Positions 2,217 to 7,056 of a DNA stretch of 10,648 bases are shown here, in pieces. The notes beneath the pieces were generated by a model that searched no databases, was not told where the DNA came from, and saw only the letters and a program-made list of their open reading frames with translations. Every line of letters begins with the position of its first letter. The stretch's first letter is position 1. The stretch is from Polynucleobacter sp. (lineage in GTDB: Bacteria; Pseudomonadota; Gammaproteobacteria; Burkholderiales; Burkholderiaceae): positions 1 through 10,648 of the forward strand of contig JAGVCB010000174.1 in the NCBI GenBank assembly GCA_020059445.1. The letters are read 5' to 3'. Made by a program: the position numbers and the translations under genes.

Positions 2217-2243
2217 TTAGCACTCTAACTGGTTGAGTGCTAA
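2217..2243. promoter_or_regulatory. CIRCE operator (HrcA binding site) of groESL
   Basis: A perfect inverted repeat TTAGCACTC-N9-GAGTGCTAA matches the canonical CIRCE at all 18 arm positions. HrcA binds this element and represses chaperonin operons. Here it covers the predicted transcription start and touches the -10 box by one base, so bound HrcA would block initiation. It is also transcribed into the groES leader, as is usual. No hrcA gene is in the window. Confidence 0.97.
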
Positions 2244-2295: not shown

Positions 2296-2312
2296 AAGGA
2301 ATGGATTTCCTA
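2296..2312. promoter_or_regulatory. Short dyad with a BvgA-type heptad, possible regulator site
   Basis: AGGAA (2297-2301) and TTCCT (2307-2311) form an inverted repeat around five bases. The right arm lies within TTTCCTA (2306-2312), identical to the heptad described for Bordetella BvgA sites. The left arm, AAGGAAT, matches the mirrored heptad at five of seven positions. Related T-rich heptads (TTTTCTA at 2286, TTTTCTG at 2330) lie about 20-24 bp to either side. The site is about 90 bp before a locus encoding a BvgA-like regulator, and 25 bp upstream of the groESL -35. Short AT-rich dyads arise easily by chance, so this is a candidate only. Confidence 0.25.
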
Positions 2313-2352
2313 AGCACCCGCACACAAGCTTTTCTGAAGAGCAGTGTAACTA

Positions 2353-2398: not shown

Positions 2399-3247
2399 AT
2401 GAAACCTAAGTCTCGGCTCTATTCACTTGTTAAAAATTGGACAAAAAAACCAGGGTTGGCTGTTAAAGAGTTCCATCAGGGACAACTATATGAAGTGATG
2501 ATGCAACCCGAGACAAGGCAGCTTGAAACTTGGGCAGAATCCCAAAATTTAAGTTTTGAGCTGGTATTGAGCACCCAGGACCTCGTTACCGAATTTGTCA
2601 CCCTCACATCCTTAGAGCAGGCGTCAAAAAACACAGCGATCGACTTAATCAAGGAAGGTATTCGCGCGGCCAATTATTGGCATAGCTTCACAAAACCACA
2701 TGCCATCATGCTCAACATGAAAGCCGAATGGTTGATTGATCCAAATTTAATGAACAGCTTTCAAGAGGAACTACTTAAGTGCTATCTACCAGTTGGACTG
2801 ATTTATGTCGGCATCAGCCACTCAGCTGAATTTAAAGAAGCTTCTCAGTTACAGGACGCATTGGTGCAATTACAACGTTTAGGTATTTTGTTTCATCTAC
2901 TGAATTTCACGGCACAGGATGAAGAGTGCCAACTGATGCTCAATCATCGATTCACTCACATCCATCTGGCAGGTGATCTGATCAGACAAGCAATCCCAGG
3001 AAGTCAGTGTGAAAAGAAATTGATTGCGCTGAAAGCACTCATCCATGCCAACGATGCAAGATCAGTGGCGGGCCCCATCAAACTCATGCACGAAAAATCT
3101 GTGGCCGAAAAGCATGTCATTGATTGTTACTACGGAAAGCACATCATGCCGCCAATGACACTGCATCAAGTGCTCAAGATGGGCAAAACAGCCAAACAAC
3201 AATTAGCCATGAAACAACTGATGAAGAAACAGTCTCAAAAGGAGTGA
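2399..3247 (+). CDS. Degenerate EAL-domain-like protein, probably non-catalytic
   Basis: This 282-residue soluble protein (no signal peptide or membrane segment) keeps the order of conserved blocks of EAL c-di-GMP phosphodiesterases but not their catalytic residues. Visible correspondences are LYEVMMQP (residues 30-37) for the YQP strand, AIMLNMKAEWL (102-112) for VNLSxxxL with its Asn (N106) kept, and LQRLGILFHLLNF (158-170) for LxxLGVxxALDDF. Further on, HIHLAGDLI (187-195) stands for LKIDxxFV, SVAGPI (222-227) for VAEGVE, and YYGKHIMPPM (244-253) for QGYxxxxPxP. The E-A-L segment itself, the DD pair, the catalytic Lys and the Glu of EGVE are all absent, so hydrolysis of c-di-GMP is unlikely. 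The tail is Lys-rich. ATG 2399 is preferred over TTG 2387. Neither has a strong ribosome binding site. It is the first gene of a three-gene operon and its end carries the ribosome binding site of the next gene. The fold assignment is inference from sequence pattern. Confidence 0.65.
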   Translation: MKPKSRLYSLVKNWTKKPGLAVKEFHQGQLYEVMMQPETRQLETWAESQNLSFELVLSTQDLVTEFVTLTSLEQASKNTAIDLIKEGIRAANYWHSFTKPHAIMLNMKAEWLIDPNLMNSFQEELLKCYLPVGLIYVGISHSAEFKEASQLQDALVQLQRLGILFHLLNFTAQDEECQLMLNHRFTHIHLAGDLIRQAIPGSQCEKKLIALKALIHANDARSVAGPIKLMHEKSVAEKHVIDCYYGKHIMPPMTLHQVLKMGKTAKQQLAMKQLMKKQSQKE

Positions 3248-3252
3248 GTTAG

Positions 3253-3876
3253 ATGAGGAAAAAAGTCCTATTGGTTGACGACCATCCAGCCATGCTTTGG
3301 GCACTTAAAAACATGCTGGCACAACAAGTTCATTTTGAAATCATCGGAGAAGCAGTTGACGGCGATGGCTGCCTTGAGTTCGTCCGAGAAAATGAGACAG
3401 ACTTGATCATCTTGGATATCGATATGCCAAAAGTAGATGGCTTCGATGTGATCCGCCGTTTAAAAATCATTGCTCCAGACAGCAGAATCTTGGTCGTGTC
3501 TTCTTTAGAAGCCAAGGTCTATGGCAGTCGCGTCAGAAGTATTGGTGGGCACGGCTTCATCAATAAGACAGCCAGTTCAGACATCATCCTAGCTGCTTGC
3601 CTAGCGGTATCTCAAGGATATACATTTTTTCATGTCAATAATTCATCCAAAATATTCAGCAGTGATGATCAAATCATTTCATCATTTTCACCAAGAGAAT
3701 TTCAAGTCATTAAATACTTGGCCGATGGACACCCCAACAGTGCCATCTCAGAATTTCTTCACATCAGCACTAAAACAGTATCCACGTACAAGACCCGTGT
3801 TTATAAAAAAATTGGTGTGACCAACATCGCAGAGTTGATTACGTTTTGTAGAACCAATCGAATCACTGATGCTTAA
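3253..3876 (+). CDS. NarL/LuxR-type response regulator, BvgA/EvgA-like
   Basis: This is a 207-residue two-component DNA-binding regulator in the cytoplasm. The receiver domain (about 1-125) has the acidic pair D9-D10, the phosphoacceptor D55 in LDIDMPKVDG, S83 in the VVSS switch strand, and K105 in GFINKTAS. After a short linker, the LuxR-type helix-turn-helix (about 144-205) shows SPREFQVIKYLADG, then STKTVSTYKTRV and the dimerisation helix. Length and KTVSTYKTRVYKKIGV pattern match the BvgA/EvgA branch of the NarL family. The ATG is placed eight bases after AAGGAG (3239-3244), which lies inside the last codons of the EAL-like gene. The 3' end overlaps the kinase gene by 8 bp, implying translational coupling. 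It presumably receives phosphate from the HPt domain of that kinase. Its targets are unknown. Confidence 0.93.
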   Translation: MRKKVLLVDDHPAMLWALKNMLAQQVHFEIIGEAVDGDGCLEFVRENETDLIILDIDMPKVDGFDVIRRLKIIAPDSRILVVSSLEAKVYGSRVRSIGGHGFINKTASSDIILAACLAVSQGYTFFHVNNSSKIFSSDDQIISSFSPREFQVIKYLADGHPNSAISEFLHISTKTVSTYKTRVYKKIGVTNIAELITFCRTNRITDA

Positions 3877-5449
3877 CGAACAACAGCTCACCCTCTTCGC
3901 ATTCATTGGCACTTTCTTACTCAGTGTTTACTTAGTGATAAGAAATAAGCATTGGTCGAATCTCGCCCATAAAAACCAACAGAATCTAAGCGCATTTCAA
4001 GAAACAAAAAACCAAGCGATCTCAACCATCAGCCATGAAATAAGAACGCCCATCAGCGCCATACTCAGTATCCAAGAAAAGCTTTTACGCAATAGTCAGC
4101 TAGACCATTCTGAAAGAACCATCTTAGAGAGCGCTCATGCCTCGGCAGAGTCGATGCTAGAGGTTCTGAATCAATTACTGGATTTATCGAAAATTGATGC
4201 CGGAAAAATGACACTCAAAACAGAGGCCTGCAACTTGGGTAATCTGATTAAAAACATCAACCGAACATTTGGCACTCTTGCACAAAAAAATAAAACTACA
4301 GTCAACTGTCATATCTGCCCAGAGATTGCAGAAAGCTTGATGGCAGATGGCACAAGATTAGGTCAGGTATTACATAACTTGATCAGTAATGCCATCAAGT
4401 TTAGTCCAGACAGAAAAGTTCAAATCACGACTCGAACCATTGCAAATGATCATTTTGCTCAGATTATCTATTTTGAAGTTTCTGACAATGGCAGGGGGAT
4501 ACCCCCAGCTCATATAGCAAGGATATTCCAACCCTATGAACAATATGAGCATATTGATGCTGAGTTTTCACAATCAAGTACAGGTCTTGGCCTGACCATT
4601 GCAAAACAGCTGATTGCGATGATGGGCGGAAAACTGGAGATTGATTCTGAAGAGGGTTTGGGCACATCTGTGAGCTTCACGCTTTCTTTTAAGCGATCCA
4701 TCCAGCAACCCAAGTACACAACTACCAATACTGCTTATGAGCAGACCACCCCCATCATCCACCATCACGAAAGCGTGATGATTGTGGACGATCATGCCCC
4801 AAGCAGACTTATCACAGAGGCTCAATTCAAAGATATGGGATATTGCGTTCACTCAAGCGCTTGCAGTCAAGAGGCTTTACAAAAAATTTGTGAGTCTTCT
4901 TTTGATATTTTGGTGACAGACTTGACCATGCCCATCATCAATGGAGATCAATTGGCAATTGCCGCTCATCAGCACTATGGTTCAAAAATAAAAATATTTG
5001 GCATCACCGCTCACACCGATGGAGCTCACAGATTGCTGAACCCTAATAATGTGTTTGATTCTGTTTTGATCAAGCCGGCATCCCTGAAAGATTGGGAACA
5101 AACACTAACTCTTGAAAAAACATATTTAATGACATTCAAAGACTCTGCTGACTCGCCACATTCGATGCTCAAAATCATTGCTAAAGAAATCTTGATGTTT
5201 CAAGAAACATCTTTGGATCTTTTACTTCAATGCCTTGGCAAACAAAAATGGGTATTGAGTGAAGTTGAATTGAAAAGTATCACTCATAAATTACTTGGTG
5301 GTGCCAAATTAAGTAATGACTTAAGACTGGCAAAACTTTGTGAACAATTTCAGGTAAAAATACCGATGCCACATCGACCTATTTTTTATGACCTTTGCAT
5401 TGCCCTGATTCGATCCAACAAGATACTAAAAAACATAGTTGCTGAGTAG
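3869..5449 (+). CDS. Hybrid histidine kinase (HisKA-HATPase-REC-HPt), BvgS-like without sensor domains
   Basis: This 526-residue inner-membrane phosphorelay kinase has one hydrophobic segment (about 8-25) followed by a short linker. HisKA carries H56 in ISHEIRTPISAI. The ATPase domain has N170/N174 in HNLISNAIKF, the G1 box DNGRGI (206-211), the F box IFQPYEQ and the G2 box TGLGL (238-242). A receiver spans about 302-415 with D307/D308, phosphoacceptor D351 in TDLTMP, T380 and K402. The C-terminal about 100 residues look like an HPt domain with H473 in THKLLGGAKL, where the usual Lys after Leu is replaced by Leu. The domain order is that of BvgS/EvgS, which are more than twice as long because of periplasmic Venus-flytrap modules and, in BvgS, a PAS. 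Here these are missing, so no ligand-sensing region is apparent. The ATG lies inside the regulator gene (8-bp overlap). The gene ends with two tandem TAG codons. Confidence 0.92.
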   Translation: MLNEQQLTLFAFIGTFLLSVYLVIRNKHWSNLAHKNQQNLSAFQETKNQAISTISHEIRTPISAILSIQEKLLRNSQLDHSERTILESAHASAESMLEVLNQLLDLSKIDAGKMTLKTEACNLGNLIKNINRTFGTLAQKNKTTVNCHICPEIAESLMADGTRLGQVLHNLISNAIKFSPDRKVQITTRTIANDHFAQIIYFEVSDNGRGIPPAHIARIFQPYEQYEHIDAEFSQSSTGLGLTIAKQLIAMMGGKLEIDSEEGLGTSVSFTLSFKRSIQQPKYTTTNTAYEQTTPIIHHHESVMIVDDHAPSRLITEAQFKDMGYCVHSSACSQEALQKICESSFDILVTDLTMPIINGDQLAIAAHQHYGSKIKIFGITAHTDGAHRLLNPNNVFDSVLIKPASLKDWEQTLTLEKTYLMTFKDSADSPHSMLKIIAKEILMFQETSLDLLLQCLGKQKWVLSEVELKSITHKLLGGAKLSNDLRLAKLCEQFQVKIPMPHRPIFYDLCIALIRSNKILKNIVAE

Positions 5450-5493
5450 TAGCCATATATACATAAGTGCTCATTAGGCTATATGATTTAGGG

Positions 5494-7056
5494 ATGCCAT
5501 TTAAGAGATATTTATTGATATTGACGGGCTTTTTTTTAGCCACGCAAAGTATTGGCCTATTTGCGGAGGATTTTTTGCCTGCCTCAGTTGAATCAGCCAT
5601 CAAAAAAAGTTCTATTCCCAAAGAAGCGATTGCAATATCTATTTCAAAAATCACGAGCCAACAAGGTCATACGACTTTTAACTCCCATGATGTGATTCAT
5701 TGGCAGGAAAATTTAGGCATGAATCCAGCATCCACGATGAAGCTTGTCACAAGCTTGGCTGCCATGGAAATGCTAGGCCCTCAATACAGGTGGAAAACGG
5801 ATCTATTCACGAACGGCCAAATCTCAAAAGGCACCCTGCGCGGGGACTTACTCATCAGAGGCAGCGGTGACCCAAAGCTGATTCCGGAAGAGGTGAATAA
5901 GCTTTTAGCCAATCTAAAAGCAAGTGGGGTAAAAAACATCCATGGAGATTTGATTTTTGACAGAAGCGCCTACGATAAATCTGTCAAAGAATCATCATTC
6001 TCTGACGGCGAACCAACTCGCGCATACAACGTTGCTCCAGACGCTCTTTTGTTTGCCTTTAATAGTTTTAGCTTTCAGTTTTTTCCAAATCTTGAAAATC
6101 GCTTGGTTGTCATCAAGCAAACGCCACGCATGGCCAATCTATCGATTGATAACAACTTGGTGGTGGTCGATGGTCCTTGTACCAATTGGCGAGACGGCAT
6201 CACCATATCTTTGAAGACGGAGAAAAAATCAGACTGGGTTGCCAGCTTTAACGGTGACTATCCCAGCGGCTGCGCAACGGCTCATTGGAACATTGTTGCC
6301 TCTGACAGTGATCAATTTTTATCCCAAAGCTTGATTGCCGCATGGGAAGACCTTGGTGGCACATGGGGCAAAAAGCCAACGATCAAAAGCGGGCAATTAA
6401 CCGAATACTTTCGGCCCATCGTGACACATTTTGGCATCCCACTGTATGAATCAGTCAGAGACATCAATAAGCTTTCTAATAACGTGATGGCGAAACAAGT
6501 TTTACTCACGCTGGCATTAGAAAAAACTGGAGGTCCAGGAAAAACCAGCAACGGAGACATGGTGGTGAAATCTTGGCTCAAGAAATATCAATTAGAGATG
6601 CCTGAACTGGTCATCGAAAACGGTTCAGGCCTATCACGCATTGAAAGAATCAGCTCAAAGCACCTCAATCAAGTCTTACTGCTTGGCTTAAATTCTTCAA
6701 CCAGAGATTACTTCACCGAATCACTTCCTATTGCTGGAGTGGATGGAACAATGAAATTTCGTTTGAAAGATAAGCTTCGTCAATACATCCCCAGAAAAGG
6801 CGATGCACAAGCATTTGAAAATAACTTAGCTCAATTCCCCAAGCCAATCAAAAAATATGGCGCTTATATCAAAACGGGATCTTTGGCTGATGTCAGAAGT
6901 ATTTCAGGCTATGTTGTGAGTAAAACAGGGCAGGTGTATGCAATCTCATCATTCATCAATCATCACAATGCTCGCTCAGGTCGAGGTATTCATGATGCAT
7001 TAATGACTTGGCTTCTTGATGATGGGCCGCAACAATTACATGCCAGAGCCAACTGA
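5494..7056 (+). CDS. dacB: D-alanyl-D-alanine carboxypeptidase/endopeptidase, PBP4 type
   Basis: This periplasmic class C penicillin-binding protein (peptidase S13) removes the terminal D-Ala and cuts peptide cross-links in peptidoglycan. It is 520 residues from this start, somewhat longer than E. coli PBP4. A clear Sec signal peptide opens the protein (MPFKR, hydrophobic core to about 21, likely cleavage after LFA at 22-24). The three active-site motifs are present: SxxK as S80-T-M-K83, SxN as S328-N-N330, and KTG at 460-462. The large insert between the first two motifs is typical of PBP4. ATG 5494 is chosen because it places the signal peptide at the N-terminus; GTG 5467 would add nine polar residues. 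No spaced Shine-Dalgarno precedes ATG 5494, while a TATGAT lies seven bases upstream. It follows the kinase gene by 44 bp and may be partly cotranscribed with it. Its 3' end overlaps sua5 on the other strand by 21 bp. Confidence 0.95.
   Translation: MPFKRYLLILTGFFLATQSIGLFAEDFLPASVESAIKKSSIPKEAIAISISKITSQQGHTTFNSHDVIHWQENLGMNPASTMKLVTSLAAMEMLGPQYRWKTDLFTNGQISKGTLRGDLLIRGSGDPKLIPEEVNKLLANLKASGVKNIHGDLIFDRSAYDKSVKESSFSDGEPTRAYNVAPDALLFAFNSFSFQFFPNLENRLVVIKQTPRMANLSIDNNLVVVDGPCTNWRDGITISLKTEKKSDWVASFNGDYPSGCATAHWNIVASDSDQFLSQSLIAAWEDLGGTWGKKPTIKSGQLTEYFRPIVTHFGIPLYESVRDINKLSNNVMAKQVLLTLALEKTGGPGKTSNGDMVVKSWLKKYQLEMPELVIENGSGLSRIERISSKHLNQVLLLGLNSSTRDYFTESLPIAGVDGTMKFRLKDKLRQYIPRKGDAQAFENNLAQFPKPIKKYGAYIKTGSLADVRSISGYVVSKTGQVYAISSFINHHNARSGRGIHDALMTWLLDDGPQQLHARAN

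Follow-up and report, generated by a model that had tools for sequence, protein, structure and literature searches.

The EAL-type protein BvgR of Bordetella was reportedly described in 1995. Its gene is a separate unit downstream of bvgAS (PMC1557856), the protein lacks 12 of the 13 phosphodiesterase residues (PMC11537037), and its mechanism has been called poorly understood (PMC12805831). In Pseudomonas, the response regulator RocR is an active phosphodiesterase, and rocA1 runs in the opposite direction to rocR–rocS1 (PMC12051241). MrgR–MrgS–ORF1, an Evg/Bvg-like pair beside an EAL-type ORF, has been likened to bvgAS–bvgR (PMC1557856), and BvgS-type kinases without a periplasmic domain are known in Cupriavidus and B. 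petrii (PMC2864759). In the excerpts available from the open-licence literature on Polynucleobacter signalling, we found no description of the operon that is our subject.

That operon lies in a window (the whole stretch of DNA analysed) of 10,648 nucleotides, which corresponds to contig 161 in a Polynucleobacter assembly of 1.14 Mb that is 66% complete. It consists of three plus-strand ORFs: an EAL-like gene (2399..3247, 282 amino acids) for an EAL-fold pseudo-enzyme, a response regulator gene (3253..3876, 207 amino acids) and a hybrid histidine kinase gene (3869..5449, 526 amino acids) whose product has no periplasmic sensor. Five bases separate the first two genes and the second and third overlap by eight, an arrangement described in an initial annotation of the window and confirmed by the ORF list. 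To the left, on the other strand, are genes that we take from their translations to be groES and groEL; groES was the divergent neighbour in 100 of the 116 loci checked. Between groES and the operon is a CIRCE element (the groES operator, 2217..2243), with its halves matched exactly and ending about 155 bp upstream of the EAL-like start; binding of the heat-shock repressor between these divergent genes might touch both promoters. The gene 3' of the kinase (5494..7056, plus strand, in an ORF running from an earlier GTG at 5467) is presumably dacB, encoding a PBP4-like carboxypeptidase, and to its right, on the other strand, are what we take, again from translations, to be tsaC, purK, purE and purC. 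dacB comes next after the kinase, no more than 200 bp away, in 104 of the 126 loci with enough sequence (the gap being mostly 0–60 bp), is further away in 16 and was not found in six; it may belong to the transcript as a fourth gene. Its closeness to the kinase in most loci hints at a link with the cell wall.

Spread and selection of the operon within the genus

The EAL-like protein has one matching place per genome in 166 of the 186 genomes of the genus, a count in which a few weak matches may represent other EAL proteins. The family profile, applied to 398 family-level genomes, matched 62 from the genus (broken or fragmentary in G031, G032, G034, G037 and G051) and had no match in two further members, G050 and G059; outside the genus it gave only partial matches, covering at most 162 of 283 positions, in 11 genomes of four genera. 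We fetched 130 loci (80 plus 50, the first 80 being from Polynucleobacter or from unclassified beta/Burkholderiaceae metagenome bins) by their EAL match, so that the counts of linkage are conditioned on the presence of that gene. The regulator directly follows the EAL-like gene in all 130 (129 by script, plus L091, which was read directly and in which an early start makes the ORFs overlap), and in 127 no more than 500 bp separate the regulator from the kinase (L091 again being added to 126 found by script). As to the exceptions, L035 stops at the end of its contig, and L090 and L105 have their next kinase ORF at a greater distance (some 2.8 kb from the regulator in L105). Thus the neighbourhood survey shows the homologues staying together in related genomes, as they should if, as the initial annotation supposed, they form a unit.

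Among the 121 genomes that are at least 99% complete, six have no match to the EAL-like protein, and no orthologue of the regulator was found in these six either (best match at most 33%); one of them, G051, retains EAL remnants. The genes for the EAL-like protein and the kinase, and dacB too, are fragmented in six genomes (L256–L261), as is expected of decaying symbiont genomes, and four of these have an intact regulator. Since the EAL-like gene is broken but the regulator intact, at 92–97% identity, in G032, G033, G034 and G037, the regulator can outlast the EAL-like protein. Some of the genomes with broken operons are probably those of ciliate endosymbionts such as P. necessarius (for its endosymbiosis, see PMC2408644).

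Might the whole operon, then, be a decaying relic with no present function? The broken copies in six genomes would be in keeping with such a history, as would the absence of the sensor in one clade, its shortening in parts of the other, and the absence of an upstream palindrome in the window lineage (see below). The idea is nevertheless very unlikely, given intact phosphorelay residues and mean dN/dS values in the window clade of 0.10 for the EAL-like gene, 0.03 for the regulator and 0.08 for the kinase (0.08–0.23 for the EAL-like gene across the four groups tested). Together the three form a genuine signalling operon of the Bvg/Roc kind, found across the genus and under selection.

How closely is the EAL-like protein bound up with its two partners? 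Across 91 loci (those missing any of five usable proteins having been dropped), and with GroEL and dacB held constant, distances were correlated at 0.63 for EAL–regulator, 0.60 for EAL–kinase and 0.73 for regulator–kinase. With only GroEL held constant, EAL–dacB (0.71) nearly equalled EAL–kinase (0.77) and EAL–regulator (0.76), and once all else was controlled for EAL–kinase and EAL–regulator dropped to 0.26 and 0.35, so we regard correlated divergence as a weak sign of coupling. That EAL–regulator rises only slightly above EAL–dacB would suit an alternative in which the EAL-like protein, its active site dead (see below), acts on some other regulator away from the phosphorelay, the operon serving for co-expression only. 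There are precedents: YdiV binds FlhD4C2 (PMC3510510), BluF antagonises BluR (PMC3509220), and BvgR, for which such a role is proposed, is a reported antagonist of RisA (PMC12805831). Yet the genomes have one EAL-like match each, always adjoining the regulator in the 130 loci, and the two genes are missing together from the six genomes mentioned above; we consider this alternative possible, if somewhat unlikely.

The EAL-like protein and its relation to c-di-GMP

The EAL-like protein starts with a conserved stretch (residues 1–20, encoded by 2399–2458 on the plus strand), and an EAL barrel occupies approximately residues 50–270. When the 282-residue protein was checked against profile models it passed the Pfam EAL cut-off (32.9 bits against 31.3) and the EAL barrel fold was evident, so that the structural similarity to EAL domains on which the initial annotation depended is real; it is the sole EAL-domain match in its own (incomplete) genome. 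For the catalytic and metal positions we used those of RocR, which we take to be E175, N233, E265, D295, D296, K316, E352 and Q372, E175 being placed by eye and the others through HMM alignments to solved EAL proteins. Among 127 relatives (EAL proteins of fewer than 250 residues having been left out), the RocR residue is kept at D296 in 28, at E352 in three, at N233 in one, and at E175, E265, D295, K316 and Q372 in none. The D295 position is L or M in 105 of the 127, and the E268 position is mostly S, K, T, D, N or Q. The catalytic and metal residue set of an active EAL phosphodiesterase is therefore not present across these relatives, and the protein has the attributes of class III EAL proteins (catalytic residues absent, loop 6 degenerate) as that class is quoted in PMC11537037. 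Although the fold and the above-threshold Pfam score might be held to speak for an active c-di-GMP phosphodiesterase, loss of the catalytic positions in 127 relatives makes this scarcely credible. The inactive site had been recognized in the initial annotation, which erred, however, in presenting it as a contrast to bvgASR, as BvgR is itself without 12 of 13 such residues (PMC11537037).

c-di-GMP may be relevant in some Polynucleobacter, since GGDEF matches occur in 128 of the 186 genus genomes. In the window genome, as far as its incomplete assembly extends, there is neither a GGDEF nor a PilZ match, and 29 of the 115 genomes that are at least 99% complete and have an EAL-like match show no GGDEF match. 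Leaving out G037, with its fragmented EAL gene, reduces these to 28, and PilZ matches were found in none of the 28. The operon was seen in 26 of them (the loci of G088 and G110 lying outside the fetched set), with the EAL-like gene in two ORFs in G025 and the kinase shortened or split in G035 and G185. Since 28 near-complete genomes keep the EAL-like gene without GGDEF or PilZ matches, c-di-GMP cannot be a general requirement of the operon, and the dead EAL protein does not in general depend on it. The same genomes, and the replacement of metal and ligand positions, make it improbable that the protein is a non-catalytic c-di-GMP receptor feeding the phosphorelay, a role proposed for BvgR (PMC12805831) and one with which the 128 genomes having GGDEF matches would accord.

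Phosphorelay, sensor and upstream palindrome

The regulator has a receiver (3265–3594, plus strand; Pfam Response_reg, 79.5 bits) and a LuxR-type GerE DNA-binding domain (3679–3846, plus strand; 64.1 bits), and its best NCBIfam model is EvgA, at 144 bits under a model cut-off of 251. Its phospho-acceptor, D55, is conserved in 80 of 80 regulators, and the DNA-reading helix appears by eye to be similar throughout. The window kinase comprises one N-terminal hydrophobic helix, HisKA (with H56), HATPase, a receiver (with D351) and an HPt-like C-terminus (with H473). HisKA, HATPase and receiver are each above the Pfam cut-off; H56 is conserved in 78 of 79 kinases and both D351 and H473 in 79 of 79. 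Pfam reported no Hpt domain in the C-terminal stretch of the window kinase, while its Hpt match in the L071 kinase reached 21.5 bits, below the cut-off of 24.6, and an HPt profile match to 7c1i (0.0035) stood in a list headed by unrelated helical proteins. From the invariance of H473 and the Pfam Hpt matches of relatives, we infer that the C-terminus of the window kinase is an HPt domain. With its receiver–GerE regulator, for which EvgA is the best model, and its phosphorelay residues kept, the system is consistent with a phosphorelay of Bvg/Evg type, as in the initial annotation.

The missing sensor, too, bears out the initial annotation: 46 residues precede HisKA in the window kinase, from which the periplasmic Venus-flytrap domain of BvgS and EvgS kinases is absent. 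Among 123 usable kinases (those with no recognizable H-box or a core of less than 380 residues having been dropped before counting), the residues before the active His number at least 250 in 94, 120–249 in seven and fewer in 22. Where the N-terminus is long it consists of a flytrap domain, its best solved relatives in a profile search being 3mpl of BvgS (1e-6; we take this entry to be the VFT2 domain) and 9ilw of EvgS (3.7e-6), whereas Pfam PF00497 gave no match over the region. In L046–L050 and L064, within the sensor-bearing clade, the flytrap region is shortened (kinases of about 709–723 amino acids). A GroEL tree of 55 rows, made by a quick method, has a branch (support 100) that parts 15 of the 16 sensorless rows from all the sensor-bearing ones; L090, the sixteenth, is the one sensorless row within the sensor clade and has a shortened ORF. 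Sensor-bearing rows had been thinned to one in four for this tree and to one in three for the kinase tree, whose branches are very long, that of L091 especially; the root is not fixed in either, the GroEL tree being a midpoint drawing. Because of this split, we regard the presence or absence of the sensor as a clade trait. The larger clade, that with the flytrap kinase, was not reached by a protein search with profile A1. Loss of the sensor in the window clade is favoured, since the domain is BvgS-like and sits beside a BvgS-type kinase, and since an outgroup kinase (L339, discussed below) has SBP_bac_3 domains; gain in the other clade is the less favoured alternative.

Upstream alignments of relatives revealed a conserved palindrome before the operon, GTAGG-N4-TTCCTAC. 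An exact copy stands in 97 of 131 upstream regions, and nine more have close variants, reached by none of 200 shuffles. Its half-site resembles what we take to be the BvgA heptad, and inverted heptads are mentioned in parts of the literature. In 20 of 20 genomes that we picked from the sensor-bearing ones, the palindrome is 76 bp upstream of the matched EAL start; elsewhere in these genomes it is exact in one place (G014:C1:1375878-1375893), and a reversed control pattern likewise had one match. With one mismatch allowed there were 15 places outside the operon (that in G014 included) against 42 matches to the reversed control, so that no wider palindrome regulon was found. The near-confinement of the palindrome to the upstream region of the operon in the 20 genomes agrees with a regulator acting chiefly on its own operon, in a search that weaker sites would escape. 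The same one-mismatch variant recurs in five genomes (G007:C1:1827679, G061:C1:1961213, G062:C1:2010413, G070:C1:2161929 and G072:C1:1974706), each time close to where the numbering of the chromosome ends; the variant could belong to a conserved coding stretch or mark a second target.

Nine rows of the sensor clade are without a site, probably because upstream DNA is lacking, the start of the ORF was placed too far upstream or the EAL gene is disrupted. The sensorless L103–L110 group keeps the palindrome or a close variant, and no upstream site better than shuffles was found in the window clade, the 44–53% clade or L091 (L045 had no upstream DNA). In the window the nearest likeness, at 2298..2313 on the plus strand, has a PWM score of -9.5, equalled by 71 of 200 shuffles, and the palindrome is scored as absent. 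Self-control is therefore not supported for the window genome.

Proposed mechanism and comparison with known systems

The reading that we prefer, with a probability of roughly 0.55, is that an unorthodox phosphorelay resembling BvgASR and RocSAR has been inherited down Polynucleobacter, and that the EAL-like protein acts by binding the regulator or the kinase; it is the linkage, shared absence and weakly correlated divergence that suggest such binding. Phosphate would pass from H56 through D351 and H473 of the kinase to D55 of the regulator, which in its phosphorylated form may bind the palindrome and control its own operon. The EAL-like protein would be a binding scaffold, probably by way of a basic stretch at its N-terminus and an extension at its C-terminus, and would restrain or tune the kinase or regulator without c-di-GMP. 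In the window lineage, in which neither sensor nor palindrome was found, the kinase would have to draw its input from the cell interior or the membrane; a candidate for that input is the EAL-like protein. To suppose further that, after the sensor was lost, the cytoplasmic dead EAL protein serves as a c-di-GMP-free sensor or gatekeeper of the phosphorelay is tentative and rather doubtful; if true, the system would also serve as a free-living model of BvgR action. Compared with the initial annotation, what is new is that the system is genus-wide, that absence of the sensor is a clade trait, that most relatives have the palindrome and that dacB is perhaps co-transcribed. The genus thus offers a natural series, with the sensor present, shortened or absent, the palindrome present or absent, and the EAL-like gene retained by almost every member.

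To look beyond the genus, 349 Burkholderiales genomes were searched with the flytrap profile; 25 matched, five being within the genus, and 20 stretches from 19 of the 20 non-genus genomes (G608 was left out) were examined. An EAL gene adjoins a regulator–kinase pair in two of these, L339 and L340; in L340 it encodes a receiver–EAL protein and is divergent from the pair. In L342 a kinase with no regulator match neighbours a long EAL-domain protein, L341 has an EAL-domain protein with no kinase match, and the remaining stretches had none. L339 (4454-9931, in genome G631 of another Burkholderiales family) has an EAL gene, a regulator (36% identical) and a BvgS-like kinase (33% identical), the same three kinds of gene in the same order and on the same strand, but the catalytic motifs of its EAL protein are, to the eye, intact (Pfam 172.7 bits) and its kinase has SBP_bac_3 and PAS domains. 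A locus of this type is possibly the ancestral form, and its apparently active EAL protein makes an ancestor with a working EAL enzyme plausible.

Among described systems, the sensorless BvgS-type kinases of C. metallidurans and B. petrii differ in having the HPt as a separate protein, and the passages describing them mention no EAL gene (PMC2864759). MrgR–MrgS–ORF1 is set apart, by its description, in having the EAL ORF downstream, behind a terminator. The Pseudomonas RocS1/RocA1/RocR system likewise unites an unorthodox kinase, a transcription-factor regulator and an EAL protein in one locus, but the EAL-like protein here has no receiver and is predicted to be inactive. With BvgA–BvgS–BvgR of Bordetella our operon shares a LuxR-type regulator, a probably unorthodox kinase, which in the larger clade bears a BvgS-like flytrap domain, and an EAL protein devoid of catalytic residues, the likeness to BvgR being one of arrangement and missing residues. 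It differs in that the sister clade is sensorless, that many genomes are without GGDEF and PilZ matches, and that, as the initial annotation had pointed out, the EAL gene comes first, upstream of regulator and kinase, whereas bvgR is downstream (PMC1557856). Because this Bvg-like arrangement persists in small-genome freshwater bacteria in which GGDEF and PilZ matches are absent, a c-di-GMP-independent mode of action is directly testable in them.
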